From Catenulispora sp. (GTDB lineage Bacteria; Actinomycetota; Actinomycetes; Streptomycetales; Catenulisporaceae): DNA of 32,339 nucleotides. Of the stretch, positions 3,027-32,339 are shown piece by piece. Location: positions 1 to 32,339 of the forward strand of contig JABFWL010000681.1 in NCBI GenBank assembly GCA_013362315.1, given 5' to 3'. The number at the start of each line of letters is the position of its first letter. Positions within the stretch are counted from its first letter, which is position 1. The notes beneath the pieces were generated by a model that was not told where the DNA came from, made no database searches, and saw nothing but the letters and a program-made list of their open reading frames with translations. The translations under genes and the position numbers were made by a program.

Positions 3027-3048
3027 GCTCCGGCCCCGCCGGCCACCC

Positions 3049-5665: not shown

Positions 5666-5879
5666 GACGGGGTCGTCGCCTGGGACATCGGATGCCCTCC
5701 TGACGGGGAGTCGGCGCCACCGCCGGGTCGGCGGGTGCGCGGTGTTGCGATGACTGTCGGGCGAGGTGTTTGCCGATGCGAGTCGCCATCGTGAAGAACT
5801 GATTACTGAGGTATCCCATGGTGTATCCGGAACGGGATCCATGATCGGGGCAGGGGCCGGCACATGGCGCCATCGCCGG

Positions 5880-6699: not shown

Positions 6700-6716
6700 A
6701 ATGTGAGGCTGGGCAA

Positions 6717-15165: not shown

Positions 15166-15680
15166 AAGTACTCTGCGGCGGTCCGATCAAAAGCCTGTTT
15201 TCCGGCGGAGTGTTCGACGCTGGAATGCGCGAGCTGGTCACCGAAACCGTGGCCGTCCTTCAGGCGGCGGGCGCGCTGGTGAGGAGCGCCCACCTCGCTG
15301 AGCGGTTCTCGATCGTCGACCTTTCCTCCCAGGACGTCACCCGCCGCGATCATGCCTGGTGCGTGTCCTGCGACGTCTATGTGGCCCTGCTGCCGACCGA
15401 TGCCGAGGGCACGGCGTACCCGAGTGCGGGCACCGCCGTCGAGCTCGGCTGGGTCTCGGCCCTGGGCAAGCCGATCGTCGTCCTGTGGGACTCCAGTCGT
15501 CCGCGCGCCTACAGCCATCTCGTCCGGGGGCTGAACGCGATATCGCCGGTGGTCTTTCTCGATCTGCTCGAGGCACGCGCGAATCCCGGGCTCCTCGTCG
15601 AAACCGTCGAACGCGCGGGCCGCTCACCTGGCGCCGGGCCGAAGGGAGGGCGGCTTCTTGCTCACGGTCATCCGCAGTGA
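15147..15680 (+). CDS. nucleoside 2-deoxyribosyltransferase superfamily protein; candidate BlsM/MilB-like nucleotide N-glycosidase
   Basis: VEVLCGGPIKSLF, SAHLAERFSIVDLSSQDVTRRDHAWCVSCDVYVALL, YPSAGTAVELGWVSALGKPIVVLWD. Confidence 0.75.
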   Translation: MGLEGVEVLCGGPIKSLFSGGVFDAGMRELVTETVAVLQAAGALVRSAHLAERFSIVDLSSQDVTRRDHAWCVSCDVYVALLPTDAEGTAYPSAGTAVELGWVSALGKPIVVLWDSSRPRAYSHLVRGLNAISPVVFLDLLEARANPGLLVETVERAGRSPGAGPKGGRLLAHGHPQ

Positions 15681-16251
15681 CAGCCCGGCGGGGGCTAAGG
15701 CCGGCGTCATCGAGATGCTCTTGGCGGGCTCCGATCCCGCGACGTTTCAGGACGCCGGTCGGCAGGCGGTGACGGATGTCTCAGGTCTCGACGGCGTGTC
15801 CGTCGCCATCGCGGCTGGCTGGCCCGAGTGCCGACCGGGACCGTGCGGTGGCGAAGGGCGGTCCGGTGTCGAAGGGCGGTCCGGCGTCGACCTGGTGAGT
15901 CCCTTCGACGCGCTCTTCCGGAAAGCGGAGCGCGCCTTCGCCGACGGGAACCGGGAAGTGCAGGTCTGGCACGGCACTTCGGACGACGCCATGTGGGGTT
16001 CGCTGCAGGTCCGTGCCGACGCGATGCGAGTCACGGTCGCGACGACGACCGGCGAGGTTCTGGCCTCGATCGACCGACTCTGGCTACAGACGACGGCACT
16101 GTGCGATGCCGTCTGGACGTCGAGGTCCCGCTCTGGCCGGGCCCGAGTAGAGATCACCCTGCACTACACCACGGCGCGGCTGACCGCCGCCCAACTGGCA
16201 CAGGCTTTGCGGGCGGCGCAGGAATGGGAATCGAACCGCGACACGACGTGA
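15658..16251 (+). CDS. hypothetical protein, no recognised family
   Basis: Open frame in the operon overlapping the upstream stop (TTG start). Contains an in-frame EGRSGV duplication. Confidence 0.55.
   Translation: MLTVIRSDSPAGAKAGVIEMLLAGSDPATFQDAGRQAVTDVSGLDGVSVAIAAGWPECRPGPCGGEGRSGVEGRSGVDLVSPFDALFRKAERAFADGNREVQVWHGTSDDAMWGSLQVRADAMRVTVATTTGEVLASIDRLWLQTTALCDAVWTSRSRSGRARVEITLHYTTARLTAAQLAQALRAAQEWESNRDTT
15853..15888 (+). repeat. 18-bp in-frame tandem duplication
   Basis: gaagggcggtccggtgtc / gaagggcggtccggcgtc (17/18 identical), encoding EGRSGV x2. Confidence 0.85.
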
Positions 16252-16264
16252 ACTTGGAGGAGAC

Positions 16265-17248
16265 ATGGCAGGCAACGGAAAGTATTTGTTCGTCAGGGTT
16301 CTGGAAGCTTGCAACGCCGATTGCTTCATGTGCGGATTCGCGTTGTCGCGAGATCGCTATCGGCTGCCTCCCGACGAGTTCTCGACGCTCCTGAGCCAGG
16401 CTAAGGGCTTGGGCGTCGGGTATGTGCGCTTCACAGGCGGCGAACCGCTCATGCACAAGGAGATCCTGTCCCTGATCCGCGTGGGCTCGGAGATGCCGAC
16501 GCAGGTCTCGTTGATCACCAACGGTTTCAGCCTGCCGTTGATGGCGCGAGACCTCGCCCAGGCCGGCCTGAACCAGGTGATCGTGAGTATCGACGCGGCA
16601 TACGCCGCACAGCACGACGAATATCGCAACACGCCGGGGTTGTTCGCGAAGGCGTTCTCGGGGATCGAGGAGGCGCTGCGCCACTCCATTTCCGTGCGCG
16701 TCAACACGGTTGTCGGGCCGCACAATTATCAGGACATGCCGATGCTGGGGCGAGCGCTGAAGGAGGCGGGGGTTTCGCACTGGGAACTGTCGGCGCTGAA
16801 GCTCAGCAGCGAGATCACCTACCCGGACCGTGAGGACGTGCTGAGAGCGGGAGAGGAAGTGTTCTCCGGGTCCGGCCTGGTGCCGATGGGCAAGCGCTGG
16901 TACGGCGACACAGAAGAGGAACAGGACCGCTATTTCGACCAGGGGATCCCACCACGGCCGTCTGGACCCCTCTGTCACGTGACGGACGACGTGATGTACC
17001 TCGATGCGAAGGCCGGCTACTTGTTTCCCTGCAGCCTGCTGCCCCATCGGTCGACTCCGGCGCTTTACGGAGCGCAGGTCCGCAACGAGGACGGCACCTA
17101 CATGCTGGACTCGCCGAAGTTCGAGGAGCGGCGGCAGTTCTTCCGCCAGAACGGCGCGAGCATCTGCACCGGCTGTTCGAGTTCGGCCGCGGGATACAGC
17201 GATGATCGGGCTCTGTCCCAGGAGAATCTCCCGGCTTGGTCCTACTAG
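16265..17248 (+). CDS. radical SAM protein, candidate BlsE/MilG-like base-glucuronate decarboxylase
   Basis: YLFVRVLEACNADCFMCGFALSRD (CxxxCxxC), RFTGGEPLMH (GGEP), additional C-terminal Cys (PLCHV, FPCSL, CTGCS). Confidence 0.88.
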   Translation: MAGNGKYLFVRVLEACNADCFMCGFALSRDRYRLPPDEFSTLLSQAKGLGVGYVRFTGGEPLMHKEILSLIRVGSEMPTQVSLITNGFSLPLMARDLAQAGLNQVIVSIDAAYAAQHDEYRNTPGLFAKAFSGIEEALRHSISVRVNTVVGPHNYQDMPMLGRALKEAGVSHWELSALKLSSEITYPDREDVLRAGEEVFSGSGLVPMGKRWYGDTEEEQDRYFDQGIPPRPSGPLCHVTDDVMYLDAKAGYLFPCSLLPHRSTPALYGAQVRNEDGTYMLDSPKFEERRQFFRQNGASICTGCSSSAAGYSDDRALSQENLPAWSY

Positions 17249-17251
17249 GCG

Positions 17252-18094
17252 ATGGACAGCTCGAAGCCGGCAGGCGAGCCGACACGGACGATCCTGGCGC
17301 GGATCCTGCGCAGCCAGCGCTTGACCGGACGGGAGGTGTGCGACCTCCAGCTGAGTGCGTCGGGCAACACGATCGTCGTCGAGACAGCGGCTCTCATCAT
17401 CCGGATCGCGTGGTGCGCCCCGATCCATGCCCGGGCTGAGAGCCGAATCTGGCGTGCGGCGGAACACGCGGGCCTTCCCGTTCCCGAACTCACGGCGCAC
17501 GGGGAAGTCGACGGGCACGAATTCGTCGTCTACCCCCGGCTGCCCGGCCGGCCGTCGCCGACGGGCGTGGCAGTCCTGCGGGAGGCCGGCGTCAAACTGG
17601 CGGCCCTGCACAGCGCGACCGTGGACGCCTTCCCGGCCGAGCTCGACTCGCGACCCCGCAGAGTCCGGCGCTTCGCCCTGGCCCGGAGGTTCGTCCGGGA
17701 CCAGGTCGGGAACCTGCCCAAAGGGGTTCCTGAGTGTGTCGGGCGAGCGGAGGCGGACTGGAAGTCGGCCTTCCACACCCCGACGCACGGCGATTTCCGC
17801 GGCCCGAACATCCTGGCCCGCGGCGGCCGCCTGTCCGGCGTCCTCGACTGGTCCGACGCGCGCCGGGCCAGCCGGGAGGCGGATCTGGGGAGTATCGACT
17901 GGGCCCGCTTCTGCGGGGTTCTGGACGGCTACTTGACCGTCGCGCCGGACGTGCGGGGAACCGAACTGGTCGGGTACTTCGCGGGCCGGTATGGAGCCCT
18001 GGCTGCCGGCGGGGTCGTCACCAGCGGCGTCGCGCTCGAGGCCGTGGAACGTTGTGTCGCGGCCGTCGAGCTGCGTGGAATCACTTTCGAATGA
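17252..18094 (+). CDS. aminoglycoside phosphotransferase (APH)-like kinase
   Basis: PTHGDFRGPNILARGGRLSGVLDWSDARRASREADLGSIDW (Brenner motif HGDxxxxN and DW). Confidence 0.85.
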   Translation: MDSSKPAGEPTRTILARILRSQRLTGREVCDLQLSASGNTIVVETAALIIRIAWCAPIHARAESRIWRAAEHAGLPVPELTAHGEVDGHEFVVYPRLPGRPSPTGVAVLREAGVKLAALHSATVDAFPAELDSRPRRVRRFALARRFVRDQVGNLPKGVPECVGRAEADWKSAFHTPTHGDFRGPNILARGGRLSGVLDWSDARRASREADLGSIDWARFCGVLDGYLTVAPDVRGTELVGYFAGRYGALAAGGVVTSGVALEAVERCVAAVELRGITFE

Positions 18095-18107
18095 AGGGCT
18101 TTTCGTG

Positions 18108-19880
18108 ATGGGGAAGAAAGCGGATCCGGATACGCCGGCCGACGAGATACTCGGCCCTGTCGAGTTGCTCGAGGCGAGGGCCCGTATGTACGCCGACGAG
18201 GCCGCTCTGGCTCTGGGACCGGAAGTCCTGTCCTATGGCACCTGGCTGGAAAAGGCGCTGAACACCGCGATGCGGTTCGAGGGCCGCGGAGTCCGGCCTG
18301 ATGACGTGGTCCTGCTGCGGTTCTCCCTGGAGAGCTTCCTGGACTACGCGGTCGCGTACATAGCGACGCTCGCCGTCGGCGCGGTGGCTGTGCCACTGGC
18401 TCAGGGCCTGCCGGATGACGCGTCAACCCGGGTGGCGACGGCGTGTCAGGCATCGTGGCTGGCCGCCCCGGCAGCTGACGGCTCCGGGACGGTGATCATC
18501 GGCCGCACCGGGCCGCCGGCTGAGCTTGCTCAAGGCATTGACACGGCGGCGGTGAGGCGGCGGTGCGCCACCGACATCGCCGAGATCCTCTTCACCTCTG
18601 GGTCCACCGGCGATCCGCAGGGGGTCGCGTGCCCCTATGGCGAAATCGGGTTCGCCTATGATCTGACGCCACCAGTGGACCTCGCCGTGCCTGCCCGGGG
18701 TGTGGACCTACACGCTGCCGCGTTCGGGACCAACTTCTGCCAGGAGATGCTCCGCTCGCCGCTGAACTGGGGCTCCATGGTGGTGACCCTGCCCGACTTC
18801 GGCGCGCAGACGCTTCGGGCCGCGGTACAGCGCTACGGTGTCGAAACGCTACGGCTCACGCCGGTCATGGCCCGGATGCTCGCGCGCCTGGGTCCGACGG
18901 ACGCGGCCTGGCTTTCCGGGATCCGGGAGATCTCGGTGAGTTCCGCGTACTGCCCGCCCGAAGTTCTGGGCCGGCTCCAGCAGGCGGCTCCCAACGCCAA
19001 GATCGTGAATCAATACTCGCTCACCGAGTCCGGCCGGGCCAAGATCAAGAACGTTTGGGGGACCGACCCGGCCGACTCCCTCGGCAGACCGGTGGAGGGA
19101 TCCGAGGTACGGATCGTCGACGAGCGGGGAACGTGCGCCGTGAACCAGGTCGGCGAGATCCAGATCCGGCACGTCGAGGCGATTTCGCGGGCCTACCTGC
19201 CGGCGAGCGGTGACGCGGCTCCGCACGCCGGGGACAAGGCGGACTGGATCTCGACCGGCGACATCGGCTACGTGGACGGCGACGGCTACGTCTACCTCGT
19301 GGACCGGGCCAAGGACATCATCAACGTGGGCGGACGGAAGGTCTCGCCGCTGGCCGTCGAGCGCGTGCTCGGCCAGGAATCGGCGGTGGCGGATGTCGCC
19401 GTGGTCGGCGTACCGCACGAGACGCTGGGCGAAGTGGTCGCGGCGATGGTGGTCTTGGCGGACGGCTACGCCGTCCTGCCCGATATTCCGTTGGAGTGGA
19501 CGCTGCAGCCTCATGAGATTCCGAAGATCTATGTCACCTCGGATCACATACCGCTCAATGCTGCCGGAAAAGTATCGCGCGACCAGGTGCGGACGGCGAT
19601 CACCACACGGGCTCGGCCCCAGGACTACACGCAGCGCGGGCCGGATGACGACGATCTGGCCGAGGTCTTCCGGGCCATCTGCAGCCACCTCCTGGAACGG
19701 CAGATCCACGGACTCGGAGGCAACTGGTTCACGGAGGGCGGCGACTCGCTGACCGCCGTGGAGTTGTTGGCGACCCTTGAGGATCGCTTCGGGATCGAAA
19801 TGGATGAGGGGCTCTTCTTCGGCGAACATACTCTGCACGACATTTTGGACGCTTTGCGGCTCCGAGTGTCCAAGTTGTGA
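18108..19880 (+). CDS. adenylation-domain protein with C-terminal carrier (A-PCP)
   Basis: ILFTSGSTGDPQGVACP, NQYSLTESG, WISTGDIGYVDGDGYVYLVDRAKDIINVGGRKVSP, GKVSRDQV; carrier motif GGNWFTEGGDSLTAVELLATLEDRFGIEM. Confidence 0.92.
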   Translation: MGKKADPDTPADEILGPVELLEARARMYADEAALALGPEVLSYGTWLEKALNTAMRFEGRGVRPDDVVLLRFSLESFLDYAVAYIATLAVGAVAVPLAQGLPDDASTRVATACQASWLAAPAADGSGTVIIGRTGPPAELAQGIDTAAVRRRCATDIAEILFTSGSTGDPQGVACPYGEIGFAYDLTPPVDLAVPARGVDLHAAAFGTNFCQEMLRSPLNWGSMVVTLPDFGAQTLRAAVQRYGVETLRLTPVMARMLARLGPTDAAWLSGIREISVSSAYCPPEVLGRLQQAAPNAKIVNQYSLTESGRAKIKNVWGTDPADSLGRPVEGSEVRIVDERGTCAVNQVGEIQIRHVEAISRAYLPASGDAAPHAGDKADWISTGDIGYVDGDGYVYLVDRAKDIINVGGRKVSPLAVERVLGQESAVADVAVVGVPHETLGEVVAAMVVLADGYAVLPDIPLEWTLQPHEIPKIYVTSDHIPLNAAGKVSRDQVRTAITTRARPQDYTQRGPDDDDLAEVFRAICSHLLERQIHGLGGNWFTEGGDSLTAVELLATLEDRFGIEMDEGLFFGEHTLHDILDALRLRVSKL

Positions 19881-19905
19881 TTCCTGGGATTGAGAGATTG
19901 AGATC

Positions 19906-20646
19906 ATGATGAAGCAGAACACTCGTCGGGAACGTGGAGTCCGCCAACGCGAACAGCTTCGGCGCCTCGTCGCCGGCGGCGGGTCGTCCACCTACGGTCT
20001 TGAGGGACCCGAAGACGTCGCCAGGCTGGGCGCGGGCGCGTCATGGTGGTCGCGTCAGAGCCAGTGGGGGCAAGCGGTCACCGCACCCGCGTCGCAGATT
20101 GCTGCGACCACTCAGGCGATGGCTTCTTCGTCGCCTCCTGCGGCCCTTCTGTTCGAGCTCGGCCGGATGGCGCTGGGTTTCTCCCAGTCCCTCGGCCGGG
20201 TGTTGGGCGACGCGATCGATGAGATCGCGCCCCCGGCGAGCGGGGCCGCCGCCGTCGCGGGTCACTCCTGCCCCATCTGCCGCGACGCGGTGGGGGGCGC
20301 TGTGTGGACGGATCACGAGTTCGAGTTTCTTCGGATCGCCTGCACGCGGTGTCAGTCGATGACCGCGATCGCGCGCATGGCGGCGGATTCTCCGGTCCGC
20401 TGGGCATCCCCGCGATTCGAGGAGACCGAGCGCACCATGGTTCTTGGATTTCCGCGGACGGCGGTTTCGGCGGTCTGGCTGGACGGCGGCCTCATCGGTG
20501 ACCGTGCCGTCAAGGACGATCGTCTGGCGATCGAGCCGGAGTGTTCGGCTGTCCCCTCAGATACCGGTGAACCCGCGATCCCGGCGCAGGCCAGGATTAC
20601 GGCGCTCCTGGACCTGGCGCCGGTGACGATCGCCTGGAGCCGGTAA
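19906..20646 (+). CDS. hypothetical protein with zinc-ribbon-like Cys pairs
   Basis: HSCPICRDAV...RIACTRCQSM (CxxC...CxxC). No other recognised domain. Stop TAA overlaps the next ATG by 1 nt. Confidence 0.6.
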   Translation: MMKQNTRRERGVRQREQLRRLVAGGGSSTYGLEGPEDVARLGAGASWWSRQSQWGQAVTAPASQIAATTQAMASSSPPAALLFELGRMALGFSQSLGRVLGDAIDEIAPPASGAAAVAGHSCPICRDAVGGAVWTDHEFEFLRIACTRCQSMTAIARMAADSPVRWASPRFEETERTMVLGFPRTAVSAVWLDGGLIGDRAVKDDRLAIEPECSAVPSDTGEPAIPAQARITALLDLAPVTIAWSR

Positions 20647-21824
20647 TGGCCTCCGGTGCGGTGTCGGTGGGAGAGGGTGCAGTGTCGATGGCCGAGGCCG
20701 GTGCCGACCGGCGTCGGATCATCAGAATCATGCCGGTCGAATTCGGATACGGGCCCCTCGGGAAGGCACTGCATGTGGCCAGGGCTATCCGCAGTCTTGT
20801 CGGAGACTTGGTGCGGATCGAACTCGTAGCGTCCGCGAACTTCCGGAGCCCGGTCGATGGCGGGCTTTTCGACGCGAGCATGAGCTCCATCGCCGCCGCC
20901 GCGCGCGCTGACGCCGTGGTGACCATGATGAACGTCAAGGGCATAGCGGCCGCCGCGGCAAGGGGCGAGAAGGTATATGTCGTCGATTCGCTGGCCTGGC
21001 TGTGGGATGAGCCCCTGCCCATCAGGGATCTGATACACGCCTACTTCTATCAGGACCTCCCTGTACTTCCCGTGCCGGTGCGGAACATCGCCGGAATGCC
21101 GAATGCCACGGCGATCGCCGCCATCGGCCGACTGCCGGCCGACGTGCGGAACGCCTCGCAGACTTCGACCGAGTCACGTCTGGACGGCGGAACCGTCGTC
21201 AGTCTGTCTGGCATAGAAGCCCCTGGATCGCGACTGGGGTGGGGCGCCCTGGCATATCCCCCCTATATCCTTGAAGCGCTGGAGCACTTGGTCGAGAGCG
21301 GGAGGCTGGACGCGACGCGGCTGGCCCTGTTCGGAAACACCACAGTGCTACGACACTTCGCCGGCAGTCGGCTGTCGCCCGCGCTGCGCGAGGGATCGCA
21401 AGGCGAGTTCGGCACCGTCGCTCGCTCGGCCGGTTCGGTCGTCTGCCCTCCAGGGCTGACGACGATCGTGGAGTGCCTGCGCAGCGGCGTCAGTCTCAAG
21501 CTGCTTCCGCCGCAGAACTATTCGCAGGTCAAGCTCATGAAAGCGTTCTCGGGCCCGGCCGGGATACCGGCCATGTCCTGGGGCGGTGCGATCGAGCCTT
21601 GGCTGCAGCAGGCGACGCTGCCGGAGCCGGTCGGAGCAGAGATCGTCCGCGGAGTGATCTCCAACGCCCGCCTGGCGAACCGACACGCGGACCCTGACGC
21701 CTTGATGGCCCTGCTGGAGCAGGAATCTCCGGTACTGGACAGCTCGGCGGTGGACAGTCTGATCGGCCCTGGGGACGGTGCGCTTGCCGTGGCCGAGCGT
21801 GTTCTGACGGACCTGCTTGGCTGA
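20646..21824 (+). CDS. GT-B-like glycosyltransferase, candidate BlsD/MilC-like cytosylglucuronate synthase
   Basis: RIIRIMPVEFGYGPLGKALHVARAIRSL (sugar-donor/acceptor Rossmann start with FGYGPLGK), SVVCPPGLTTIVECLRSGVSLKLLPPQNYSQ donor-site region. Confidence 0.68.
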   Translation: MASGAVSVGEGAVSMAEAGADRRRIIRIMPVEFGYGPLGKALHVARAIRSLVGDLVRIELVASANFRSPVDGGLFDASMSSIAAAARADAVVTMMNVKGIAAAAARGEKVYVVDSLAWLWDEPLPIRDLIHAYFYQDLPVLPVPVRNIAGMPNATAIAAIGRLPADVRNASQTSTESRLDGGTVVSLSGIEAPGSRLGWGALAYPPYILEALEHLVESGRLDATRLALFGNTTVLRHFAGSRLSPALREGSQGEFGTVARSAGSVVCPPGLTTIVECLRSGVSLKLLPPQNYSQVKLMKAFSGPAGIPAMSWGGAIEPWLQQATLPEPVGAEIVRGVISNARLANRHADPDALMALLEQESPVLDSSAVDSLIGPGDGALAVAERVLTDLLG

Positions 21825-21887
21825 TTCAGGCCTGCCGATCTTCAACGACGACAACATTTTTCCGAGCCGCAGGGGTGAGGCGGGGCG

Positions 21888-22790
21888 ATGATTCTTTCCG
21901 ATTTCGAAGTATCAGTCAGTGTTAGAGATCTGGTGGCCAAGCTCCTCAGAATCCCCGATCGTGCACGCATCTTCACAGTTCCAGCCAATATCGCCGAGTC
22001 GTCTTTCCGTATCACCCCGAATCTTCAGGAGATCTTGCGGAAGAGCGGCCTGCCCTGTCGGCGAGTGAACCAGGACTGGCTGTATGACCAGGTTGATCTG
22101 AACAATATCGCACTGCATCTCGTCCCCGGCTCGCAGCAGCGCAAAATGCTGCAGTGGTGGGCTCGGGAGCTGAATCGCCAGTATGGCGAGGTGCACAGCT
22201 ATCGTGTCGACGTCGTCGCGCAATGTCCTTCGCCGAGGCCCTGCGGCAAGTGCGAGTTCAGCGTCCTGCGCCCGGACCTGCCGCGCCTGCGCGTGGTGAC
22301 GTTTGCCGAGTCGCCGACGAAGCTGCACAGCGAGGTGTTCACCTTGGCCAGATCGTGGCCGCAGTTGCCTGCCAAGGTCCTCGAGCTGATCGATGATTAC
22401 AGCTGGCTGAAGTACATGCAGATTCCGGCGCCCCTCAACTGGCATGAGGATTTCATCCTCAGCCAGGGGATCAGTGACTGCTCCGGATTCGGGAGACTGC
22501 TGGCGAACGAGGGCCGTGCCCGCGGCCTGACCACCCGCTTCTGCTATGGCCGCTCGCTGACACCTCCCTTCTCATACGGCCACTATTGGGCAGAGTTCCT
22601 GGTGGAAGACGTATGGGTCCCGGTCGATTCGCTGCTTATCGACGCAATGCTCAGCTGGGGAGTGCTGGACGGGACGAAATGGGATCGAAGCTCCTGCCTC
22701 GGCGGCATCCTGGGCCGTCTTGCCCGCGGGCATCGTCCGATGCTGTTACACCGTGGTCGTCCGGCGCCGGTGCAGCTGCAGGTGGCGTGA
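21888..22790 (+). CDS. transglutaminase-like cysteine protein
   Basis: SDCSGFGRLLANEGRARGLTTRFCYG (Cys), SYGHYWAEFLVEDVWVPVDSL (His, Asp) match transglutaminase-like triad spacing. Codon 287 is TTA. Confidence 0.72.
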   Translation: MILSDFEVSVSVRDLVAKLLRIPDRARIFTVPANIAESSFRITPNLQEILRKSGLPCRRVNQDWLYDQVDLNNIALHLVPGSQQRKMLQWWARELNRQYGEVHSYRVDVVAQCPSPRPCGKCEFSVLRPDLPRLRVVTFAESPTKLHSEVFTLARSWPQLPAKVLELIDDYSWLKYMQIPAPLNWHEDFILSQGISDCSGFGRLLANEGRARGLTTRFCYGRSLTPPFSYGHYWAEFLVEDVWVPVDSLLIDAMLSWGVLDGTKWDRSSCLGGILGRLARGHRPMLLHRGRPAPVQLQVA

Positions 22791-22802: not shown

Positions 22803-23783
22803 CTACAGCCAGCCGCGTTGGCCGGCCTTGAGGCCGGCTTCGAACCGGGACCCGGCGTCCAGGCGGCGCATCAGAACTTCCATACGGCGTTTGACGGTAC
22901 GCAGCGACACACCGAGACGCTTGGCGGCGGCTTCGTCGGTGAGTCCGGCGGCCAGCATTCTCAGCAGTTCCCGTTCCGTCGGGGTGATGTCGTCTTCGCC
23001 GCCGGCTTCGGTCGTATCGAGGTCGGTCCCGTCGCTCCACGTCTGCTCGAACAGTGCCAGCAGCCCGGCCAGGACCCCCGGCTCACGCAGGACGGCGATA
23101 CCGCGGGCGGTGGCGTCCGGGTCGAGGGCCAGGACCGCTATCCGGCGGTCGACGATGATCATTCGGGGCGGAACCAGCGGTGCGGTGCGGACCTGCGCGC
23201 CGAGTCCGATCGTCCAGCGGGCGTAGTCCATGTTGGTCCGATCGGCGCGCATACTGTCCTGGTAGACACTGCGGCGGGTCAGCCCGCGGACCGCGAGATC
23301 CTCATCCAGCAGGCGAGCGGCGGCCAACGTCGCAGGGGCCTGCGGCCCGCCGGGGATCAGCGTCAGCACTTCCTCGGTCGCCGTGGTCATCAGCTCTTCA
23401 AGGCGGCCCTGGATCGCGTCCAAGCCCAGCAGTCGCTCTATCGGATCGCCGCTGGCCCCGGGCGTAGTGGTCGGTTCGGTGAGCAAGGCGGTGACCTGTT
23501 CACGGCTGGCGGCGAGTTGGGCGCGGCGGGCTTCCAGCTCGTTCTGTTGCCGTTGGAGCAAGATCGCCATCGCCCGCTGGAGGCTGACGGGAAGCCGGAC
23601 TCCGGGATCTTCCCGCGAGACTCGGAGCAGTGCCAGGTCGGCCAGCTCGTCCAGCGCGGCATGTACGTCGGCCTCGGGCAATAACAAGTGCGCCGACAAC
23701 TCGTCGACGCCAAACCCCGGAAAGGCCAGAAGTCCGCGATAGACCTTCTCCGTCGTCTCGTTCAACCCCAGTGCTGAAAGCAT
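22803..23783 (-). CDS. LuxR-type regulator with TrmB-like N-terminal region
   Basis: C-terminal HTH ITPTERELLRMLAAGLTDEAAAKRLGVSLRTVKRRMEVLMRRL; N-terminal LGLNETTEKVYRGLLAFPGFGVDELSAHLLLPEADVHAALDEL. Start ATG23783; codon 34 is TTA. Confidence 0.85.
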   Translation of the reverse strand: MLSALGLNETTEKVYRGLLAFPGFGVDELSAHLLLPEADVHAALDELADLALLRVSREDPGVRLPVSLQRAMAILLQRQQNELEARRAQLAASREQVTALLTEPTTTPGASGDPIERLLGLDAIQGRLEELMTTATEEVLTLIPGGPQAPATLAAARLLDEDLAVRGLTRRSVYQDSMRADRTNMDYARWTIGLGAQVRTAPLVPPRMIIVDRRIAVLALDPDATARGIAVLREPGVLAGLLALFEQTWSDGTDLDTTEAGGEDDITPTERELLRMLAAGLTDEAAAKRLGVSLRTVKRRMEVLMRRLDAGSRFEAGLKAGQRGWL

Positions 23784-24088
23784 CGTAGAGCCTCCCCAAC
23801 TCGACAACACCGCCGCGGCTCGGTTGTCACGATGCAAGAGCGCGGCGGCGGCGCGCAACGTCCGGCGTGGCGGCTGGCCGTCATCGGCCAGCTTTCCGGC
23901 CAGATCTCCGCCCGCGGATCCCGGGCACGACGCGTCACGCTCCGCGGGCGAGGCGACAGCCGCAGATTGGCCACATCCGGCCGATCCTCCTCGCGCGGGC
24001 CGTCGCGCTCTTGACCCTGATATCAGATCCCTAAGACGCTGGCCGAGGTGATTGTCACGTCGATGAGTGTGTGGGGAGTCTTTCGCGG

Positions 24089-24328
24089 ATGGTACTCGAG
24101 GAGCGGCTACGGGGCGTCTTCGTGCAGGCGCTCGAGCTGGAGGACGGCGTCGATCCGGGCGTGATCCGCTACCGGAACCACCCGCGCTGGGACTCGCTGG
24201 GCCACATGACCCTGATCGTCGCGATGGAGTCTGAGTTCGACGTCGAGATCGGCCCCGAGCAGCTGATCGAGATCGACTGCTTCGACGCCGCCGTCAAGGT
24301 GCTGCGCGATGTCGGCGCGCATGGCTGA
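24089..24328 (+). CDS. acyl carrier protein
   Basis: RWDSLGHMTLIVAMESEFDVEIGPEQL (phosphopantetheine Ser in DSL). Confidence 0.85.
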   Translation: MVLEERLRGVFVQALELEDGVDPGVIRYRNHPRWDSLGHMTLIVAMESEFDVEIGPEQLIEIDCFDAAVKVLRDVGAHG

Positions 24329-25067
24329 ACTCGACGGGCGGGTGGCCCTGGTCACCGGCGCGACCCGGGGGATCGGCTACGCCGTGGCGCACGAACTGGC
24401 GGTGCACGGAGCCACGGTGATCCTCAGCGGTCGCGACGGGAGCCGGGCCGCCGAACGCGCGCGAGACCTCGCGGAGCAGACCGGCGCGCAGGTCGAGGGC
24501 GCCGTCCTCGACGTGAGTGCCTTCGACGCGGTCGCGCCGGCGGTGAGCGCGGCGGTCAGACCGCACGGCAGACTGGACATCCTGGTCGCGAACGCCGGAG
24601 TCATGCTCTCCTCCCCGCTCGGCGCCGTCACCGGCGCGGACGTGCGCACGACGCTCGACACCAACATCGCCGGAGTGATCGCCACCGTCCAGGCGGCCGG
24701 GCGGCTGATGATGCGCCGCAAGTCCGGCGCCATGGTGCTGCTCGGATCGATCGCCGGACGGGACGGAAGCGCCGGCCAGATCGCCTACAGCGCTTCGAAG
24801 GCCGCCGTGGCCGGGGCCACCCGCTCCGCCGCTCGGGAGCTCGGCCGCTGGGGGATCCGGGTCAACGCCGTCGCCCCCGGCGTCATCGACACCGACCTCA
24901 TCGCCGGGCTCCCGGCCGAGGCCAAGGAGCGGTACAGCACCGCGACGCCGATGGGCCGGCTCGGCACCGCGGCCGACGTCGCGAAGGCGGTGCGGTTCCT
25001 CGTCGGCGACGACGCGGGCTTCATCGCCGGACAGGTGCTCGGTGTCGACGGAGGGCTCGTGTTGTGA
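24321..25067 (+). CDS. SDR-family 3-oxoacyl-ACP reductase-like protein
   Basis: ALVTGATRGIGYAVA, NAG, YSASKAAVAG (YxxxK), VAPGVIDTDL, C-terminal GQVLGVDGGLVL. Start 24321 or 24309. Confidence 0.92.
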   Translation: MAELDGRVALVTGATRGIGYAVAHELAVHGATVILSGRDGSRAAERARDLAEQTGAQVEGAVLDVSAFDAVAPAVSAAVRPHGRLDILVANAGVMLSSPLGAVTGADVRTTLDTNIAGVIATVQAAGRLMMRRKSGAMVLLGSIAGRDGSAGQIAYSASKAAVAGATRSAARELGRWGIRVNAVAPGVIDTDLIAGLPAEAKERYSTATPMGRLGTAADVAKAVRFLVGDDAGFIAGQVLGVDGGLVL

Positions 25068-26479
25068 CGGCTCGCCTGGCCGCGCCCGGTGCGCGCCTGA
25101 TCGAGGCGTCCTGCGGGCTCGTGCTCGAGGGCGCGCGGTTCGCGACGCGGATCGACGGCGTCGCCGCCGAACTGGAGTCCTTGCCACCCGGTGCCGTGTT
25201 CACGTCGGCGCAGTCCACTGCCGCCACTGCCTTGCACATGCTGGGCGCGTGGGCCGCGCGCCGACCTGTGCTGCCGGTGGATCCCTCCTGTGGGGACCCG
25301 GAGTTTGCGGACCTACTCGCCCGATTCCGTCCCGCCATACTCACCGGGCTTGGCGAAGAGCAACTCACCCGCCTCGGACAGTGCGCCGGCTACCGCGTGG
25401 CGCCGCTGCCGCTCCTCGGTCCCAGCCTGGTGCGCACCGTCGAACCCGCGCCGAGCCCGCACCCCGAACTCGGGGTGCTGCTCGCCACATCGGGCTCGAC
25501 CGGGCGGCCGAAGCTCGTCCGGCTCTCGCGCCACGGTGTCGTGGCCAATGCCGAGGCGATCGCCGGCGCGCTGGCCATCGGTCCCGACAGCGTGGCGGCG
25601 ACCACGCTTCCCCTCTTCTACAGCTACGGACTCAGTGTCCTGACAAGCCACCTGCGCGCCGGGGCGACCGTCGTCCTCGTCGACGGCGATGTCACCGGCC
25701 GGGCCCTGTGGTCCGCGGTGGAGACGCACGGCGTCACCACGCTTCCCCTGGTGCCCAGCCAGCTGGAGATGCTGCGCAGGATGCGGTGGGTACCGGAGCG
25801 CTACCCGCGCATCAGAAGTCTGACGGCGGCTGGCGGCCGGCTGCGGGAGGCCACGGCGCAGCATTTCCACACGCTTCTCAGCGCCTCCGGCGGCGGGCTG
25901 TCCGTCATGTACGGCCAGACCGAAGCCGGCCCGCGTATCGCGATCCTGCCGCCGGAGGCGCTGGAGAAGAAGCTGGGCTCGGTCGGTCCGGCGATCGCGG
26001 GGGTGCGGCTGAGCATCCGCCTGGCCGACGGCACCGAGACCGTCGAGCCCGGAGCGAGCGGCGAGGTGATCTGCCGGGGGCCGGGCGTGATGATGGGCTA
26101 CGCGCAGGAGGCGCTGGACCTTGCCGCACCCGACGAGCTCGACGGCACCCTGCGCACCGGCGATCTGGGCCGCCTCGACGAGGACGGTTGCCTGTGGCTG
26201 TCCGGAAGGATCAGCCGCATCGGCAAGGTCTTCGGCATCCGGGTGGATCTGGACGCCGTGGAGCGCACGCTCGCCGCCGAGGGACCGGTCGCGGCCGTGG
26301 CGGTCGACGACGCGATCCGGATCTGGGTCCAGGGCCCCGAGGGGCGCGAAGCCGAGTCGGCTCAGCACGTCGCGGACAGTCTGCGTATCCCGCGCTCCGG
26401 GGTGGACGTGCGGTTCCTCGATCTCCTGCCGACCCTCCCGAACGGCAAGACCGACTATCGCGCCCTGGAGGCCTTATGA
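25064..26479 (+). CDS. AMP-dependent acyl synthetase/ligase
   Basis: VLLATSGSTGRPKLVRLS, VMYGQTEAGPRIA, LRTGDLGRLDEDGCLWLSGRISRIGKVFGIRVD, LPNGKTDYRAL. Last sense codon is TTA. Confidence 0.92.
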   Translation: MTARLAAPGARLIEASCGLVLEGARFATRIDGVAAELESLPPGAVFTSAQSTAATALHMLGAWAARRPVLPVDPSCGDPEFADLLARFRPAILTGLGEEQLTRLGQCAGYRVAPLPLLGPSLVRTVEPAPSPHPELGVLLATSGSTGRPKLVRLSRHGVVANAEAIAGALAIGPDSVAATTLPLFYSYGLSVLTSHLRAGATVVLVDGDVTGRALWSAVETHGVTTLPLVPSQLEMLRRMRWVPERYPRIRSLTAAGGRLREATAQHFHTLLSASGGGLSVMYGQTEAGPRIAILPPEALEKKLGSVGPAIAGVRLSIRLADGTETVEPGASGEVICRGPGVMMGYAQEALDLAAPDELDGTLRTGDLGRLDEDGCLWLSGRISRIGKVFGIRVDLDAVERTLAAEGPVAAVAVDDAIRIWVQGPEGREAESAQHVADSLRIPRSGVDVRFLDLLPTLPNGKTDYRALEAL

Positions 26480-27534
26480 CGACGACGCTCCGCGGCGGAC
26501 GTTTCACCCTGAGCCAACCGGAGCGCGAAGCCAAGCTCCTGCCGGAACTGGCCGAACTGACGGCTCATCACTACGCGTCGTGCGCGCCGTACGCGCGGAT
26601 CCTGGCGGCGATGGACGAATCACCCCGCCGCGACTACGCCCACTGCCGCGATCTGCCCTGGTTGCCGGTCCGGCTGTTCAAGCACCACACGTTCAAGAGC
26701 GTGCCCGACGCCGAGGTCTTCACGACGGTCACCTCCTCCGGCACGACGGGAGACGCGAGCCGGATCTATCTGGACCGCGCCGCGGCGTCGATGCAGCAGC
26801 GCGCACTCTCGGAGACGCTGCGCACGGTCATCGGCTCGCATCGGCTGCCGATGCTGATCGCCGATTCCAGCGCGACGGTCGCCCGCGGCGGCACCCACTC
26901 CACCCGCGGCGCGGCGATCCTCGGCATGATGATGTACGGCAAGAACCATACTTTCCTGCTCGACGCGGACGACCAGGTCGACCTGCCGGCGGTGCGCGCG
27001 TTCCTGGCGGCCCACGGCGAGCGCCCGTTCCTGGTTTTCGGGTTCACGTACCTCATCTGGTCGCGGCTGCACCCCGTCCTGGTGCAGGAGGGGCTGGATC
27101 TGTCCCAGGGTGTGCTCGTGCACACGGGAGGCTGGAAGAAGCTGGCCGACCGGGCCGTCAGCGCGCAGGAGTTCCGGCGCGGGCTCGAGCTTTGCGGCCT
27201 GCGCCGAGTCCACGACTTCTACGGGATGGCCGAGCAGATCGGCACCGTCTTCCTCCAGGGCCCGGACACGCACGACCTGTACTGCCCCGACTTCGCCGAC
27301 GTCATCATCAGGGATCCGCAGACCTGGCGGGAGGCGCCGGTGGGCACCCCGGGCGTGATCGAGGTACTCAGTACTCTGCCGCGCTCCTACCCCGGTCATG
27401 TGCTGCTCACCGAGGATCTGGGCGTGGTGCACGGCATCGACGACGGCGAGTGGCCGGGCAAGCGCTTCTCCGTGCTCGGGCGGCTGCCCCGAGCTGAGGC
27501 CCGCGGGTGCAGCGACGCTGTGGGGACGCCATGA
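26476..27534 (+). CDS. LuxE-like acyl-protein synthetase
   Basis: LPVRLFKHHTFKSV, TVTSSGTTGDASRI, HTGGWKK, DFYGMAEQIGTVF, C-terminal LGRLPRAEARGCSD (LuxE-type C-terminal Cys). Confidence 0.87.
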   Translation: MTTTLRGGRFTLSQPEREAKLLPELAELTAHHYASCAPYARILAAMDESPRRDYAHCRDLPWLPVRLFKHHTFKSVPDAEVFTTVTSSGTTGDASRIYLDRAAASMQQRALSETLRTVIGSHRLPMLIADSSATVARGGTHSTRGAAILGMMMYGKNHTFLLDADDQVDLPAVRAFLAAHGERPFLVFGFTYLIWSRLHPVLVQEGLDLSQGVLVHTGGWKKLADRAVSAQEFRRGLELCGLRRVHDFYGMAEQIGTVFLQGPDTHDLYCPDFADVIIRDPQTWREAPVGTPGVIEVLSTLPRSYPGHVLLTEDLGVVHGIDDGEWPGKRFSVLGRLPRAEARGCSDAVGTP

Positions 27535-28751
27535 TCCAGCAACGATTTCCCAAGCCGCAGGAGTCGAGCACCGCGGGACTGCTCACTCGGCTGAGCGCCG
27601 AGCCGCCAGACGGCCGGCTGGTCTTCGGCGACGAACGCGTCGTGGACTTCCTCGACACGGTCTCGCGGCGGCTGCTCGCGCCGACGCTCACCCGCAGCCA
27701 TCCGGAGCTGGCGGCCCTCGGCTTCTTCCTGCGCCGTTCCCGGCTGCGGCGCCTGCTTTCCGACCTGGCGAACCGCCCGGCCGAAGTGCGGGTTCCCCGC
27801 GGGCTGGTGTTCCACATCCCACCGGCGAATGTGGCTTCCCTGCTGGTGTACCCGTGGGCGCTGTCGATGCTCGCCGGCAACGCCAACGTGGTGCGGCTTC
27901 CCACTCGGGGTTCGGAAACCACCGAGCCGCTCCTGGAACTGCTCTGCGAATGCGCCGAGGACGCTGCGCCTGCCGTGTCGCACTCCCAGTCCGTCGTGGC
28001 GTACGGCCGCGACGAGGAGGTCACCGCGGCGTTGAGCGCGGCCTGCCGGCTGCGAGTGCTGTGGGGCGGCGACCGGACGGTCCAGGAACTGCGACGCTTC
28101 CAGCTCGGCCCGGACGTCCGTGACCTGGCCATGGCCGACCGGTGTTCGCTGTGTGCGATCTCGGCGCGAAGTTGGCTGGCCGCGAGCTCTTCGGAACGTG
28201 AGGACGTCGTGGAAGGCTTCTACAACGACGCGTACTGGTATGGGCAGGCGGCATGCGCTTCGCCGCTGACCGTGTGCTGGATCGGGTCGCCCGCTCAGGC
28301 CGAAGCCGCCCGCCGGGACTTCTCGGACCGGCTCGAAGCCGTCGTGGCGAAGCGTGAGCCGCGCATCGAGCCCGAGATCGCCATCCAGAAGCGGGTGGCG
28401 ACCTACGGCCTCGCTGCCGAGGGCGACGTCGAGGCGATACGTCATGTGAGCAACGCGCTGGCGATCGTCTCGTTGGCCCCCGGCCGCCTGCTCGACCGCT
28501 GGTCCGGGACCGGCACGTTCGGACTCGCCACCTTTGCGAGCCTGCTCGATCTGGTACCGCTGATCACCACGCGGCACCAGACCATGGGGTACTTCGGGTT
28601 GAGCCGCGCCGAGCTCGTCTCGTTCGTCGAGGCTCTGGGCGGCCGCGGCATCGACAGGCTGGTCCCGATCGGCGAGGCGCTGGCGTTCGAACCGGTGTGG
28701 GACGGCTACGACCTCGTGCACGAGTTCAGCAAGCTGGTCACTGTGCGCTGA
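27531..28751 (+). CDS. LuxC-like acyl-CoA/acyl-protein reductase
   Basis: VFHIPPANVASLLVYPWALSMLAGNANVVRLP, YWYGQAACASPLTVCWIG (catalytic Cys region). ATGA overlap with the LuxE-like gene. Confidence 0.87.
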   Translation: MIQQRFPKPQESSTAGLLTRLSAEPPDGRLVFGDERVVDFLDTVSRRLLAPTLTRSHPELAALGFFLRRSRLRRLLSDLANRPAEVRVPRGLVFHIPPANVASLLVYPWALSMLAGNANVVRLPTRGSETTEPLLELLCECAEDAAPAVSHSQSVVAYGRDEEVTAALSAACRLRVLWGGDRTVQELRRFQLGPDVRDLAMADRCSLCAISARSWLAASSSEREDVVEGFYNDAYWYGQAACASPLTVCWIGSPAQAEAARRDFSDRLEAVVAKREPRIEPEIAIQKRVATYGLAAEGDVEAIRHVSNALAIVSLAPGRLLDRWSGTGTFGLATFASLLDLVPLITTRHQTMGYFGLSRAELVSFVEALGGRGIDRLVPIGEALAFEPVWDGYDLVHEFSKLVTVR

Positions 28752-28786
28752 ACCGAGGTGCGCTGAACCGACCCCGCTGAACCGGC
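28743..28786. repeat. three near-tandem CGCTGAACCG repeats
   Basis: gtgcgctgaaccgag/gtgcgctgaaccgacc/ccgctgaaccggcc, spanning the stop of the LuxC-like gene. Confidence 0.6.
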
Positions 28787-28847
28787 CCCGGCAACGCCGC
28801 CGGTGGTCGGCGACGACAGCCGAGGCGTCGCGGGCCGTCGGTACCCG

Positions 28848-30620
28848 CTATCCGACGACCCGCCCGGATCCCCGCGCCAGCACCGGCGTCATCTCCCAGC
28901 CGGCCAGGTCGCGCGTGCGCGGCTTACCGGAGCACACGACGTACTCCTGCGGCGCCATGGCGGTGCGGTTTCCGGGCAACGCCGCTACGCACTCCTCGTG
29001 CAGCCGTGTGAGATCCAGGTCATGCCGACCGCCATCGATGAAGGCGGTGAGCCGTGAGCCCTCGGGTGACGGCACCGCGAAGACGTCCGTCACGGCGGCT
29101 GCGGACGCGCCGCGCACCAGTGCCGCCACGTCCGGGAGCCGGACCCAGTTGCCGTCCGAGAGCGTCCAGTCGGCGCCGCGGGAGACCTGGCTCAGCTCGG
29201 CGTGCTCCCCGATTCGCGCGACCGCGATCTCCTGGGAGACCGATGCGCCCAGAACCCGCTCCACCGCCTGCACCCAGGCGAGGGCCTCGTGCGCGGGTAG
29301 TACCGCGGTGTCCACGATGAGCGTCAGCACGAGCGCGTCCTCGGAGCCGTTGGCGAAGACGAAGTAAGTACTCGTGCTGTTGTCCGTGCCCTCGATCCAC
29401 CGCCAGTGACCCTGCGTCCGCGCCTGCGCCAGCTGGGAAGCGGACGGGCGCTGCGCGCTGGACGAGATCCGCGCGATGGGAACGACATTGAGCCAGCAGG
29501 ACAGGTCGAACGCGGTTCCGCGCTCGAGTTCCAGCCGCTTGCGCGCGGCTTCCAGATCGATCGGCGGATACCTGCCGAATCGCGCGGCCTGCAAGATGGA
29601 CGGCGTGGCACGGTCGATGACATCCGCCACGCTCGCGTCGGCGAGGTCGACCCGGGCCGGGACGTCCTGGGTGTACATGCCGACCGCCCCGTGGAGCTGT
29701 GGCTCGAGCCGGTTGCCGACGGTCAGCTGGATGAAGGCTCCTGGCAGAGCGCTGACGAACCCGGCCACCGAGCAGATGCCCGCGTACAGCACGGCAGCGG
29801 GAGTCGTGTTGTGCCGGGCGGCGAGATAAGGGACCGCCATGGCCAGCAGGGGCGAGGTGAACTCGAGATAGCGGTACCGGGGCGCCTCGACCTCCTGGAC
29901 CGGTCTGGGCAGCATGGTCTGCGGCATCGCGCGGTACGTGGCCTCGTGCTGGGCCACGGCACGGGACCCCAGACGCACCCCGGCCGGCGAGGATTCCCAT
30001 TGCGCCGCGTCCCGCATCAGGTACGGGACCCGCGGAGCGCGGGGGTCCTCGGGAATGTCGCTCAGCAGCGCCCGCAGATGGTATTTGATCCACTGCCAAC
30101 CCGTGACGTCGGTGATCAGGTGGTTCAACGCGAAGGCGGCGTAGCGTGCCGAACCGTCCTCGAGGACGACGGCGGCTCGGATCGGCGATCCGTTCTCGAG
30201 GTCGAAGGGCTGCCCGGCGAGTGCCGCGACGACAGCGGGCACCGTGGCGTCCGGGACCTTCTCGCCGCAGTCGACGACCGCCACCGGAAGGCTGACCTCG
30301 CTCAGGACGCGCTGTGCCGGGCCGAGCGGCGGGGGGACGTACCGGGTGCGCAGCGCCTCGTGGCTCATCAGCAGGTCGCGCAGCGCCTCGATCACTTCGT
30401 CCAGGCTGAGGCCGGGCCGCAGGACGAGCCAGACGCTCAGGTTCAGCGACTGGGTCTCCGGCTCCAGCGCCTGGAACAGCATCAGCATGTGCTGCTGAGC
30501 CCAGTTCAGCGGCGCCGTCACCGGATCACCGGCGGCCGCGCAGTCGATGCGGTGGAACCGGATGCTCTGCGCGCCGAGGAGGGCGGGCTCGAAGTCCGCC
30601 AGCGGGGAGTCCGAGGTCAT
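28848..30620 (-). CDS. stand-alone NRPS condensation-domain-like protein
   Basis: PLNWAQQHMLMLFQ, SHEALRTRYV, AFALNHLITDVTGWQWI (HHxxxDG replaced by NHxxxDV), VGMYTQDVPARVDL. Confidence 0.78.
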   Translation of the reverse strand: MTSDSPLADFEPALLGAQSIRFHRIDCAAAGDPVTAPLNWAQQHMLMLFQALEPETQSLNLSVWLVLRPGLSLDEVIEALRDLLMSHEALRTRYVPPPLGPAQRVLSEVSLPVAVVDCGEKVPDATVPAVVAALAGQPFDLENGSPIRAAVVLEDGSARYAAFALNHLITDVTGWQWIKYHLRALLSDIPEDPRAPRVPYLMRDAAQWESSPAGVRLGSRAVAQHEATYRAMPQTMLPRPVQEVEAPRYRYLEFTSPLLAMAVPYLAARHNTTPAAVLYAGICSVAGFVSALPGAFIQLTVGNRLEPQLHGAVGMYTQDVPARVDLADASVADVIDRATPSILQAARFGRYPPIDLEAARKRLELERGTAFDLSCWLNVVPIARISSSAQRPSASQLAQARTQGHWRWIEGTDNSTSTYFVFANGSEDALVLTLIVDTAVLPAHEALAWVQAVERVLGASVSQEIAVARIGEHAELSQVSRGADWTLSDGNWVRLPDVAALVRGASAAAVTDVFAVPSPEGSRLTAFIDGGRHDLDLTRLHEECVAALPGNRTAMAPQEYVVCSGKPRTRDLAGWEMTPVLARGSGRVVG

Positions 30621-30699: not shown

Positions 30700-30969
30700 T
30701 CAGATGTATCCGCGCCTGGCGGCCCAGGCGACGGCCTCGATGGGGGTGCCGACCCCGAGCTTCTCGCACAGCGCCCGGATCCGCCGGCGGTTGGTGCGGC
30801 ACGAGGTGTAGAGCTGGCGCGCGATGGTGTCCATGGGCACACCCTGGGCGAGCAGGCGCAGCAGTTCGATGTCGGTCGCTGTGAGTCCGGGGCTTCCGGA
30901 CGGCGCCTGGTCCGCGCCCGCTTCCTTCGCCGATGCGGCCCCGGCGTCCAGAGTGTCGATCTCGGACAT
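30700..30969 (-). CDS. small LuxR-type HTH regulator
   Basis: LTATDIELLRLLAQGVPMDTIARQLYTSCRTNRRRIRALCEKLGVGTPIEAVAWAARRGYI. Start at MSEIDTLD (30969) or upstream ATG31005. Confidence 0.75.
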   Translation of the reverse strand: MSEIDTLDAGAASAKEAGADQAPSGSPGLTATDIELLRLLAQGVPMDTIARQLYTSCRTNRRRIRALCEKLGVGTPIEAVAWAARRGYI

Positions 30970-31409
30970 TGTCACCTCAACCTTCGCGACACGGGTACGG
31001 CGCATGATGAGAGCCGCTGTACGGTGTCGAAGCCGGTTCCGATGCCCTCGCCGGGATCCGCCGAGGGGAAGAATCCGCGGCGGGCTTCATCGGACTTCTC
31101 GGGCCACCAGGCGGGCACTGTCATGGTTCTCTTTCCCACAGGCGCGATGCCGGTGTGCAGACCGCATGACGAACTCACCCCGTTGTGACTCGATCAATGA
31201 TTGGCGTACGAAGATGGAGTTTTCCGGCGGCGCGAGCGGCATGAGGACACGTTCCGCCGAGAACTTGACCAGAAGACTGCTCGCCGAGGCCAAGCCATCC
31301 GGCGTGCTGAGGCGGCCCCGTGCTGCGAACTTCGCAATGTGTTTGCTACGTCCCGAAGGACGTATCGATGATCCCCACGAATCAGTTTTCTGTCAACCCT
31401 GGTCAGCTT

Positions 31410-31926: not shown

Positions 31927-32033
31927 ATTGACACCCGCGTCCACCAGGCTCACAGTGATGCCGATCGCGCGCGTGGCACACCGTGCGCGAACATTTCCCG
32001 CTGCGCGAATTGCGAATTGAGAGAAGTCCACAT

Positions 32034-32339
32034 ATGAACGATGCTCTTACGCGTCCGAACCATCGCGCGCACGGCCGTGGCAGGATCAGCCTTCTGATCA
32101 GCACTCTGTGCACCGCGTTGCTCGCCGGCGTCATGGCGCTCCTGCCGGGAAGCGCCAGCGCCGCGACGACCATCTGCTCCAGCCAGACCAACACCGTCAA
32201 CGGGTACTGGTACTCGTTCTGGACCGAGGGCTCCGGCTCGGCCTGCATGACCTTCGGCTCGGCCGGCAACTACAGCACCTCCTGGAGCAACGCCGGCAAC
32301 TTCGTCGGCGGCCTGGGCTGGAGCACCGGCGGCCGCAAG
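32034..32339 (+). CDS. secreted GH11 endo-1,4-beta-xylanase, N-terminal part (cut by window end)
   Basis: Signal peptide LLISTLCTALLAGVMALLPGSASAA, then NGYWYSFWTEGSGSACMTFGSAGNYSTSWSNAGNFVGGLGWSTGG, characteristic of GH11. Confidence 0.92.
   Translation, partial: MNDALTRPNHRAHGRGRISLLISTLCTALLAGVMALLPGSASAATTICSSQTNTVNGYWYSFWTEGSGSACMTFGSAGNYSTSWSNAGNFVGGLGWSTGGRK

Follow-up and report, generated by a model that had tools for sequence, protein, structure and literature searches.

What does a set of acyl-activating and acyl-reducing genes, headed by a free acyl carrier protein (ACP) and convergent with the gene for a stand-alone condensation (C) protein, do in the genome of a Catenulispora strain? 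An earlier sequence-only reading of the 32,339-nucleotide stretch analysed here (the window) had proposed a separate, uncharacterised small-molecule locus. The genes that bear on the question are the following (coordinates in the window, strand, product).

16265..17248, plus strand, radical SAM cytosylglucuronate decarboxylase of the BlsE family (TIGR04466, 432.7 bits against a cut-off of 400)
17991..19880, plus strand, adenylation-carrier protein of the nucleoside operon, a possible amine partner (PF00501 1.4e-37, PF00550 2.3e-9)
20646..21824, plus strand, cytosylglucuronate-synthase-like (CGA-synthase-like) protein (TIGR04467 2.6e-15, 56.5 bits against a cut-off of 300)
21888..22790, plus strand, transglutaminase-like protein, last gene of the nucleoside operon (PF01841 1.3e-6)
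22803..23858, minus strand, TrmB/LuxR-type regulator, divergent from the ACP gene
24089..24328, plus strand, free ACP of 79 aa with attachment site W-D-S-L-G-H-M (PF00550 8.3e-4, slightly under cut-off)
24309..25067, plus strand, FabG-like SDR, an NAD(P)H reductase with an S-Y-K site (PF13561 1.7e-58)
25064..26479, plus strand, AMP-forming acid ligase with A-motifs and NGK lysine intact (PF00501 7.6e-44)
26476..27534, plus strand, LuxE acyl-protein synthetase with C-terminal Cys345 in RGCSD (PF04443 1.2e-42)
27531..28751, plus strand, LuxC acyl reductase with its active-site Cys in C-A-S-P (PF05893 4.7e-20)
28848..30620, minus strand, stand-alone C protein with an N-H-L-I-T-D site (PF00668 4.1e-22)
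30700..31005, minus strand, small LuxR-type HTH protein (PF00196 5.5e-5, slightly under cut-off), adjoining the C gene, a link that is positional only

The six proteins on which the earlier proposal was built are all encoded where it had placed them, comprising a five-gene cassette (ACP, SDR, ligase, LuxE and LuxC; 24089-28751, plus strand) and the convergent C gene, and their GC content by codon position is as usual for coding DNA within the window. Overlaps of 4 bp between the SDR and ligase, ligase and LuxE, and LuxE and LuxC genes indicate translational coupling of the cassette. A GGGGAG some 12 bases upstream supports 24089 as the ACP start, with an alternative GTG at 24071 possible, and LuxC was started from the ATG at 27531, the mechanical open reading frame beginning at an upstream GTG (27507). 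Catalytic motifs are intact throughout, including DSL in the ACP, TGxxxGIG, NAG and S-Y-K in the SDR, TSGSTGRPK, YGQTE and NGK in the ligase, SSGTTG and the C-terminal GC in LuxE, and CASP in LuxC. The W-D-S attachment site is invariant among 10 aligned ACP relatives, as is the C-A-S-P cysteine in aligned LuxC relatives, and this LuxC gave the sole match to its family in the genome. Neither a ketosynthase nor a luciferase (luxA/luxB) family was matched among the window proteins scanned, in agreement with the sequence-only reading.

The specificity of these enzymes is less well defined. The top NCBIfam matches of the SDR are 3-oxoacyl-ACP reductases, under their equivalog cut-offs. For the ligase, the top match was the exosortase-A ligase model TIGR03098; both this identity and AmcH were rejected, and its substrate was left unnamed, because these curated models score far under cut-off. 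The ligase is presumed to load the ACP. In the literature, an assayed function was not found for any cassette enzyme in any context.

A neighbourhood search, which the sequence-only reading had suggested as a check, found the five genes together in several phyla, with their order almost unchanged, a recurrence that rules out chance clustering. An ACP, a 3-oxoacyl-ACP reductase, an AMP synthetase, luxE and luxC occur in that order in the group II flagellin-glycosylation islands of Aeromonas (98 strains; PMC7874193), and Acp, LuxE, LuxC, CaiC and FabG sets, matched by family, are present in those of Enterobacteriaceae (PMC4875605). In such islands, where they are common, the cassette genes have been labelled 'fatty acid synthesis' or 'liposugar', without a product. 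In Actinoplanes and Nonomuraea, related cassettes adjoin PseB (over cut-off), PseC and PseG, and in the actinobacterial genome G384 the neighbours are flagellin and an LpxA-like acyltransferase; the window LuxE shares 58-65% identity with these three. Elsewhere, the cassette lies in an exopolysaccharide locus of Deinococcus that includes glycosyltransferases and NeuD (over cut-off), near a PseH-like protein in Ponticoccus, near a NeuD-like protein and DegT in Rhizobium, and beside malate synthase, ThiS and ThiF in Burkholderiaceae. In the LuxE tree the window sequence groups with that of Actinospica (98/96), and this pair falls inside a clade (98/98) that also holds the malate-synthase set of Burkholderiaceae and cassettes linked to pse genes or flagellin. 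The window set thus shares with the cassette of flagellin and glycan islands its five families, gene order, coupled operon and sequence kinship. It was classed with this enzyme cassette and not as a glycosylation island, because glycan and flagellin genes are not adjacent and neither PseB nor flagellin was matched in the genome.

The closest counterpart is in Actinospica durhamensis (NZ_JAGSOG010000002), which carries the whole cassette (52-71% identity; LuxE 69%, SDR 71%), the C protein (61%) and a transglutaminase-like protein. In line with the C gene, this locus additionally encodes a nucleotide-sugar dehydrogenase (UDP-glucose type) and a stand-alone adenylation protein, and a malic-enzyme-like gene lies nearby. 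Flagellin (PF00669) and PseB had no match in either genome, an absence that is weak for the window genome (82% complete, 770 contigs) and better founded for Actinospica (97% complete). A GH11 xylanase near both loci was considered as a sign of a fixed chromosomal site; this argument was dropped because most of these genomes carry several such xylanases.

The C protein belongs to the NRPS condensation superfamily, as indicated by Pfam, by an AlphaFold model with the condensation-domain fold (mean pLDDT 86.5) and by Foldseek, which matched the C-A didomain 6p1j (1.6e-24) and also CmnI (9uay). Within the family alignment, the second His and the Asp of the HHxxxD active site are invariant, while the first His is replaced by Asn. 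The C-terminal tail of about 110 aa matched no Pfam family and, judging from the order of its strands and helices in the model and from longer Foldseek alignments to C-A didomains, may be adenylation-domain-lid-like.

The five-gene set is therefore known as such, and what is unusual here is its partnership with a C protein, without a flagellin or PseB match, in two genera. Our favoured explanation, which we hold with moderate confidence, is that a glycan-decoration cassette, known but without a proven product, has been redeployed together with the C protein for a small molecule in this actinobacterial family. The earlier proposal accordingly stands in part: we retain a reductive acyl/aldehyde set that is accompanied by a C protein and is probably devoted to a small molecule, whereas the set itself had already been charted (PMC7874193, PMC4875605).

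The most serious competitor, which we consider possible but unlikely, is that the cassette and C protein form a tailoring arm of the adjacent gene cluster, adding an acyl- or aldehyde-derived unit to a cytosine amino-sugar core. The region from 6.7 to 22.8 kb of the window resembles a blasticidin/mildiomycin-type nucleoside cluster, apparently previously unreported, whose operon ends only 1.3 kb ahead of the cassette and whose adenylation-carrier protein could feed the C protein; furthermore, the Actinospica dehydrogenase belongs to an enzyme class that provides this pathway with its glucuronate donor. Against this, BlsE had no match in the 97% complete Actinospica genome, which has cassette and C protein, so that the cassette appears separable from the nucleoside cluster. 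Two Streptomyces BlsE loci were likewise devoid of LuxE, LuxC, ACP and C homologues over about 37 kb around BlsE, and on their evidence the LuxEC cassette is not a regular part of such clusters. The TrmB/LuxR-type regulator gene also intervenes on the opposite strand between operon and cassette; a homologue of its product adjoins BlsE in a Streptomyces genome (33% over 215 aa).

The transglutaminase-like protein, in which Cys198, His232 and Asp247 are conserved, is the point at which these two explanations meet. Its gene is the last of the nucleoside operon here, and in Actinospica a homologue is encoded 3' of LuxC, which favours a tailoring arm and counts against redeployment, since a cassette partner in one genome is a nucleoside-operon member in the other. 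The homologues are only 28-31% identical, however, and relatives occur in unrelated clusters with neither partner, and we have downgraded this gene as a firm cassette partner. A role as an andrimid-type transglutaminase amide synthase was considered as a candidate, but the literature found was not decisive. The placement of this gene leaves the separation from the nucleoside cluster uncertain. The 'separate' locus of the sequence-only reading, which overlooked the flanking nucleoside cluster, is thus likely from the Actinospica comparison but not proven.

It is less probable still that the cassette decorates the cell surface or a glycoprotein, with glycan genes elsewhere in the genome. Most other cassettes do lie in glycan or flagellin loci, including those published (PMC7874193, PMC4875605), but PseB and flagellin were unmatched in the window and Actinospica genomes, and what both genera conserve beside the cassette is a C protein of NRPS type, not a glycosyltransferase or NeuD/LpxA acyltransferase. 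An ordinary bioluminescence-type supply of fatty aldehyde, or a decaying remnant, was rejected as very improbable despite the homology of LuxE and LuxC to the solved pair 7xc6, since no luciferase family was matched among the scanned window proteins, the ACP, ligase and SDR conserved with the set across phyla are absent from lux operons, and the genes are coupled with all motifs intact.

Under the favoured redeployment, the ligase would load a carboxylic acid onto the ACP and the SDR would reduce a keto or aldehyde group. LuxE would activate a carboxylate with ATP and pass the acyl group via its cysteine to that of LuxC, where reduction by NADPH would yield an aldehyde, and the C protein may couple the acyl unit on its carrier to an acceptor through an amine or hydroxyl group. 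The acceptor in this strain is a guess, because the cassette has no adjoining sugar acyltransferase of the NeuD/LpxA kind, none being found in the window. In the chemistry we prefer, the weakest part of this proposal, ligase and LuxE would each serve one end of a single dicarboxylic acid, giving an omega-hydroxyacyl-ACP.

In a more specific and doubtful version, the cassette would act on malate-type dicarboxylic acids as a 'half-reduction' machine. The ligase would place one carboxylate on the ACP, LuxE would activate the other, LuxC would convert it to the aldehyde and the SDR to the alcohol, such that malate would yield dihydroxybutanoyl-ACP; the omega-hydroxyacyl group would then be moved to an amine by a sugar acyltransferase or, here, by the C protein. 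This would explain why a single set contains two acid-activating enzymes, and would account for the Burkholderiaceae malate synthase and Actinospica malic-enzyme-like genes and for two unexplained masses of the Aeromonas AH-3 flagellin glycan, a 102-Da moiety and a 376.14-Da sugar. The latter corresponds to Pse5Ac7Ac in which C4H6O3 takes the place of one acetyl (calculated 376.148). An O-methylglyceroyl group, having the same formula, also fits this replacement.

The C-protein-linked version, away from flagella and pseudaminic acid, offers a simpler setting in which to learn the cassette product, and a small-molecule role, if true, would connect protein-glycan decoration with small-molecule assembly. 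The window LuxE and LuxC are homologous to those of the bioluminescence fatty acid reductase LuxC-LuxE (PDB 7xc6; profile matches 2.1e-27 and 5.8e-11, respectively) and have corresponding active cysteines, Cys345 aligning with KGCS, whereas the sequence similarity is remote and the window has an additional ACP, ligase and SDR and no luciferase match. Blasticidin S and mildiomycin clusters share with the window genes for a BlsE-type radical SAM enzyme and for DegT and MilM/MilN-like proteins, together with a CGA-synthase-like gene whose match is under cut-off; their published gene roles do not include LuxE or LuxC, and the window cassette lies outside the operon. CmnI of capreomycin (PDB 9uay; PMC12400406), one of the stand-alone or A-domain-less NRPS condensation proteins, has in common with the C protein its fold and its separate polypeptide, while the latter differs in lacking a carrier domain, in its lid-like tail, in having Asn for the first His of HHxxxDG and in having a LuxEC cassette as partner. 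Finally, the Aeromonas and Enterobacteriaceae islands share the five enzyme families, and for Aeromonas also the gene order, as compared by published names and families. There, pse, glycosyltransferase and flagellar genes flank the set, whereas in the window, from a genome with no flagellin or PseB match, its neighbours are a nucleoside-type cluster and the gene for a C protein.

The sequence-only reading had placed an ACP-SDR-ligase-LuxE-LuxC gene set beside a condensation-domain protein, with neither ketosynthase nor luciferase. Window ORFs and domain searches confirmed these six genes, and the scanned window proteins gave no hit to any ketosynthase or luciferase family.

Genes of the LuxEC cassette and its convergent partner (window ORFs and domain search)
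24089-24328, + strand, ACP
24309-25067, + strand, FabG-like SDR
25064-26479, + strand, AMP ligase
26476-27534, + strand, LuxE
27531-28751, + strand, LuxC
28848-30620, - strand (opposite to the cassette), stand-alone NRPS-type C-domain protein (C protein)

Three cassette joints have 4-bp start/stop overlaps, and inspection found all catalytic motifs intact, the ACP serine, the LuxC cysteine and most LuxE landmarks being invariant among aligned relatives. By profile comparison the window LuxE and LuxC match the LuxE-LuxC complex 7xc6, with the C-terminal Cys of LuxE aligned to KGCS of the 7xc6 LuxE; the genome has a single LuxC-family match. In these families ligases load ACPs, SDRs reduce, LuxE activates, LuxC reduces and C proteins condense. 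The ligase is accordingly predicted to load the ACP and the SDR to provide a reduction, while LuxE would activate a carboxylate that LuxC would reduce to the aldehyde, and the C protein would carry out a condensation. That the set includes two enzymes which activate acids suggests that its substrate is a dicarboxylic one. Malate synthase in the Burkholderiaceae version, a malic-enzyme-like gene near another version and the Aeromonas mass arithmetic given below do no more than hint at this.

Neighbourhood comparison drew on 13 loci from a LuxE scan, 15 from plasmid records with LuxE, and LuxE matches in 3 of 398 sampled genomes of the phylum (the window's genome counted; two further loci). Compared with the window proteins, the complete cassette recurs in Actinospica, Actinoplanes, Nonomuraea, five Burkholderiaceae (order ACP-LuxE-SDR-SDR-ligase-LuxC), Deinococcus and Ponticoccus, at least ACP-SDR-ligase-LuxE in Rhodospirillales, and partial or more rearranged forms in Rhizobium, Stygiobacter, archaeal and KSB1 loci. 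In the LuxE tree the window pairs with Actinospica (support 98/96), and the pair falls within a starred clade that also holds Actinoplanes, Nonomuraea, the actinobacterial genome G384 and the Burkholderiaceae set, finer branching being unstarred; this is compatible with, and no proof of, recruitment from a glycan setting.

Association with glycan genes is purely descriptive, the contexts coming from our own ORF calling on a non-random set of loci. The cassette adjoins PseB above the curated cut-off, and PseC and PseG near theirs, in Actinoplanes and Nonomuraea; annotated glycosyltransferases and NeuD above cut-off in Deinococcus; a PseH-like protein under cut-off in Ponticoccus; and NeuD-like, DegT and transketolase halves in Rhizobium. 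In G384, of the window's phylum, flagellin, an LpxA-like acyltransferase and, by eye, FlhA/FlhB/FliR-like genes surround it. In this locus (L057 1-15938) flagellin lies on one side of the cassette and flagellar export genes on the other, which makes it a candidate island for flagellin modification beyond the Gram-negatives. Malate synthase, ThiS-like, cassette with two SDRs and ThiF-rhodanese form one Burkholderiaceae operon (L026 6816-16394; likewise L024, L025, L027 and L028), which looks like a so far unrecognised locus for a small molecule that contains sulfur.

The available text on Aeromonas group II flagella glycosylation islands reports the same five-gene set and describes no cassette mutant (PMC7874193), and that on enterobacterial islands the same enzyme families (PMC4875605). 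The AH-3 glycan is reported there to contain an unidentified 102-Da moiety and a 376.14-Da pseudaminic acid derivative (PMC7874193). One C4H6O3 acyl unit can account for both, as the arithmetic hints (316.127 - 42.011 + 102.032 = 376.148). The single-sugar strains Sch3 (reportedly plain Pse5Ac7Ac) and AH-1 (403 Da) are compatible with this idea, though few.

The C protein, whose confident model (mean pLDDT 86.5) matches NRPS C domains, has a 61% identical relative sharing one locus with the Actinospica cassette, where a free-standing adenylation gene and one for a nucleotide-sugar dehydrogenase precede it. The next-best relatives among 396 genomes reach ~30% identity; several retain the C-terminal tail, one adjoins PseB and one a glycosyltransferase. 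Sugar acylation may be a role of C proteins in this family. In Streptomyces locus L062 (6987-10882) PseB above cut-off is followed by a relative that shares a single long ORF with a stretch resembling, by eye, a glycosyltransferase, and on contig C5 of the window's genome a family copy adjoins a glycosyltransferase 2 gene.

Upstream, a 6.7-22.8 kb operon (window 6696-22790) encodes a radical SAM BlsE-type cytosylglucuronate decarboxylase above cut-off, together with CGA-synthase-like, DegT, MppP-like, DapA-like and deoxyribosyltransferase-like proteins, an adenylation-carrier protein, a formyltransferase, a two-GNAT protein and an ABC exporter. Judged by its proteins, it looks like a blasticidin S/mildiomycin-type cytosine nucleoside cluster, resembling the mildiomycin cluster in its MilC/D/G/M/N-type proteins, with a divergent BlsE (432 bits vs 633-647 in two Streptomyces BlsE loci). 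Since BlsE found no match in the Actinospica genome and the two Streptomyces loci show no cassette in the roughly 37 kb surrounding BlsE, each gene set occurs without the other; a functional link in the window's genome may nonetheless exist because a transglutaminase-like gene, also present at the Actinospica cassette locus, bridges both. Two isochorismatase-family hydrolases, a GntR regulator and a permease-like protein (737-5873, - strand; by eye) are probably an unrelated catabolic operon. The window end interrupts a GH11 xylanase gene (31983-32339); GH11 genes are many in these genomes, one lying near the Actinospica cassette.

The proposal of an uncharacterised small-molecule locus thus holds in part: the cassette itself is already known, and its partnership with the C protein is new. 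In the window and Actinospica the cassette is partnered by the C protein, and at the thresholds applied neither genome gave a match to PseB or flagellin; at several of the other loci it lies in pse, flagellin or other glycan settings.
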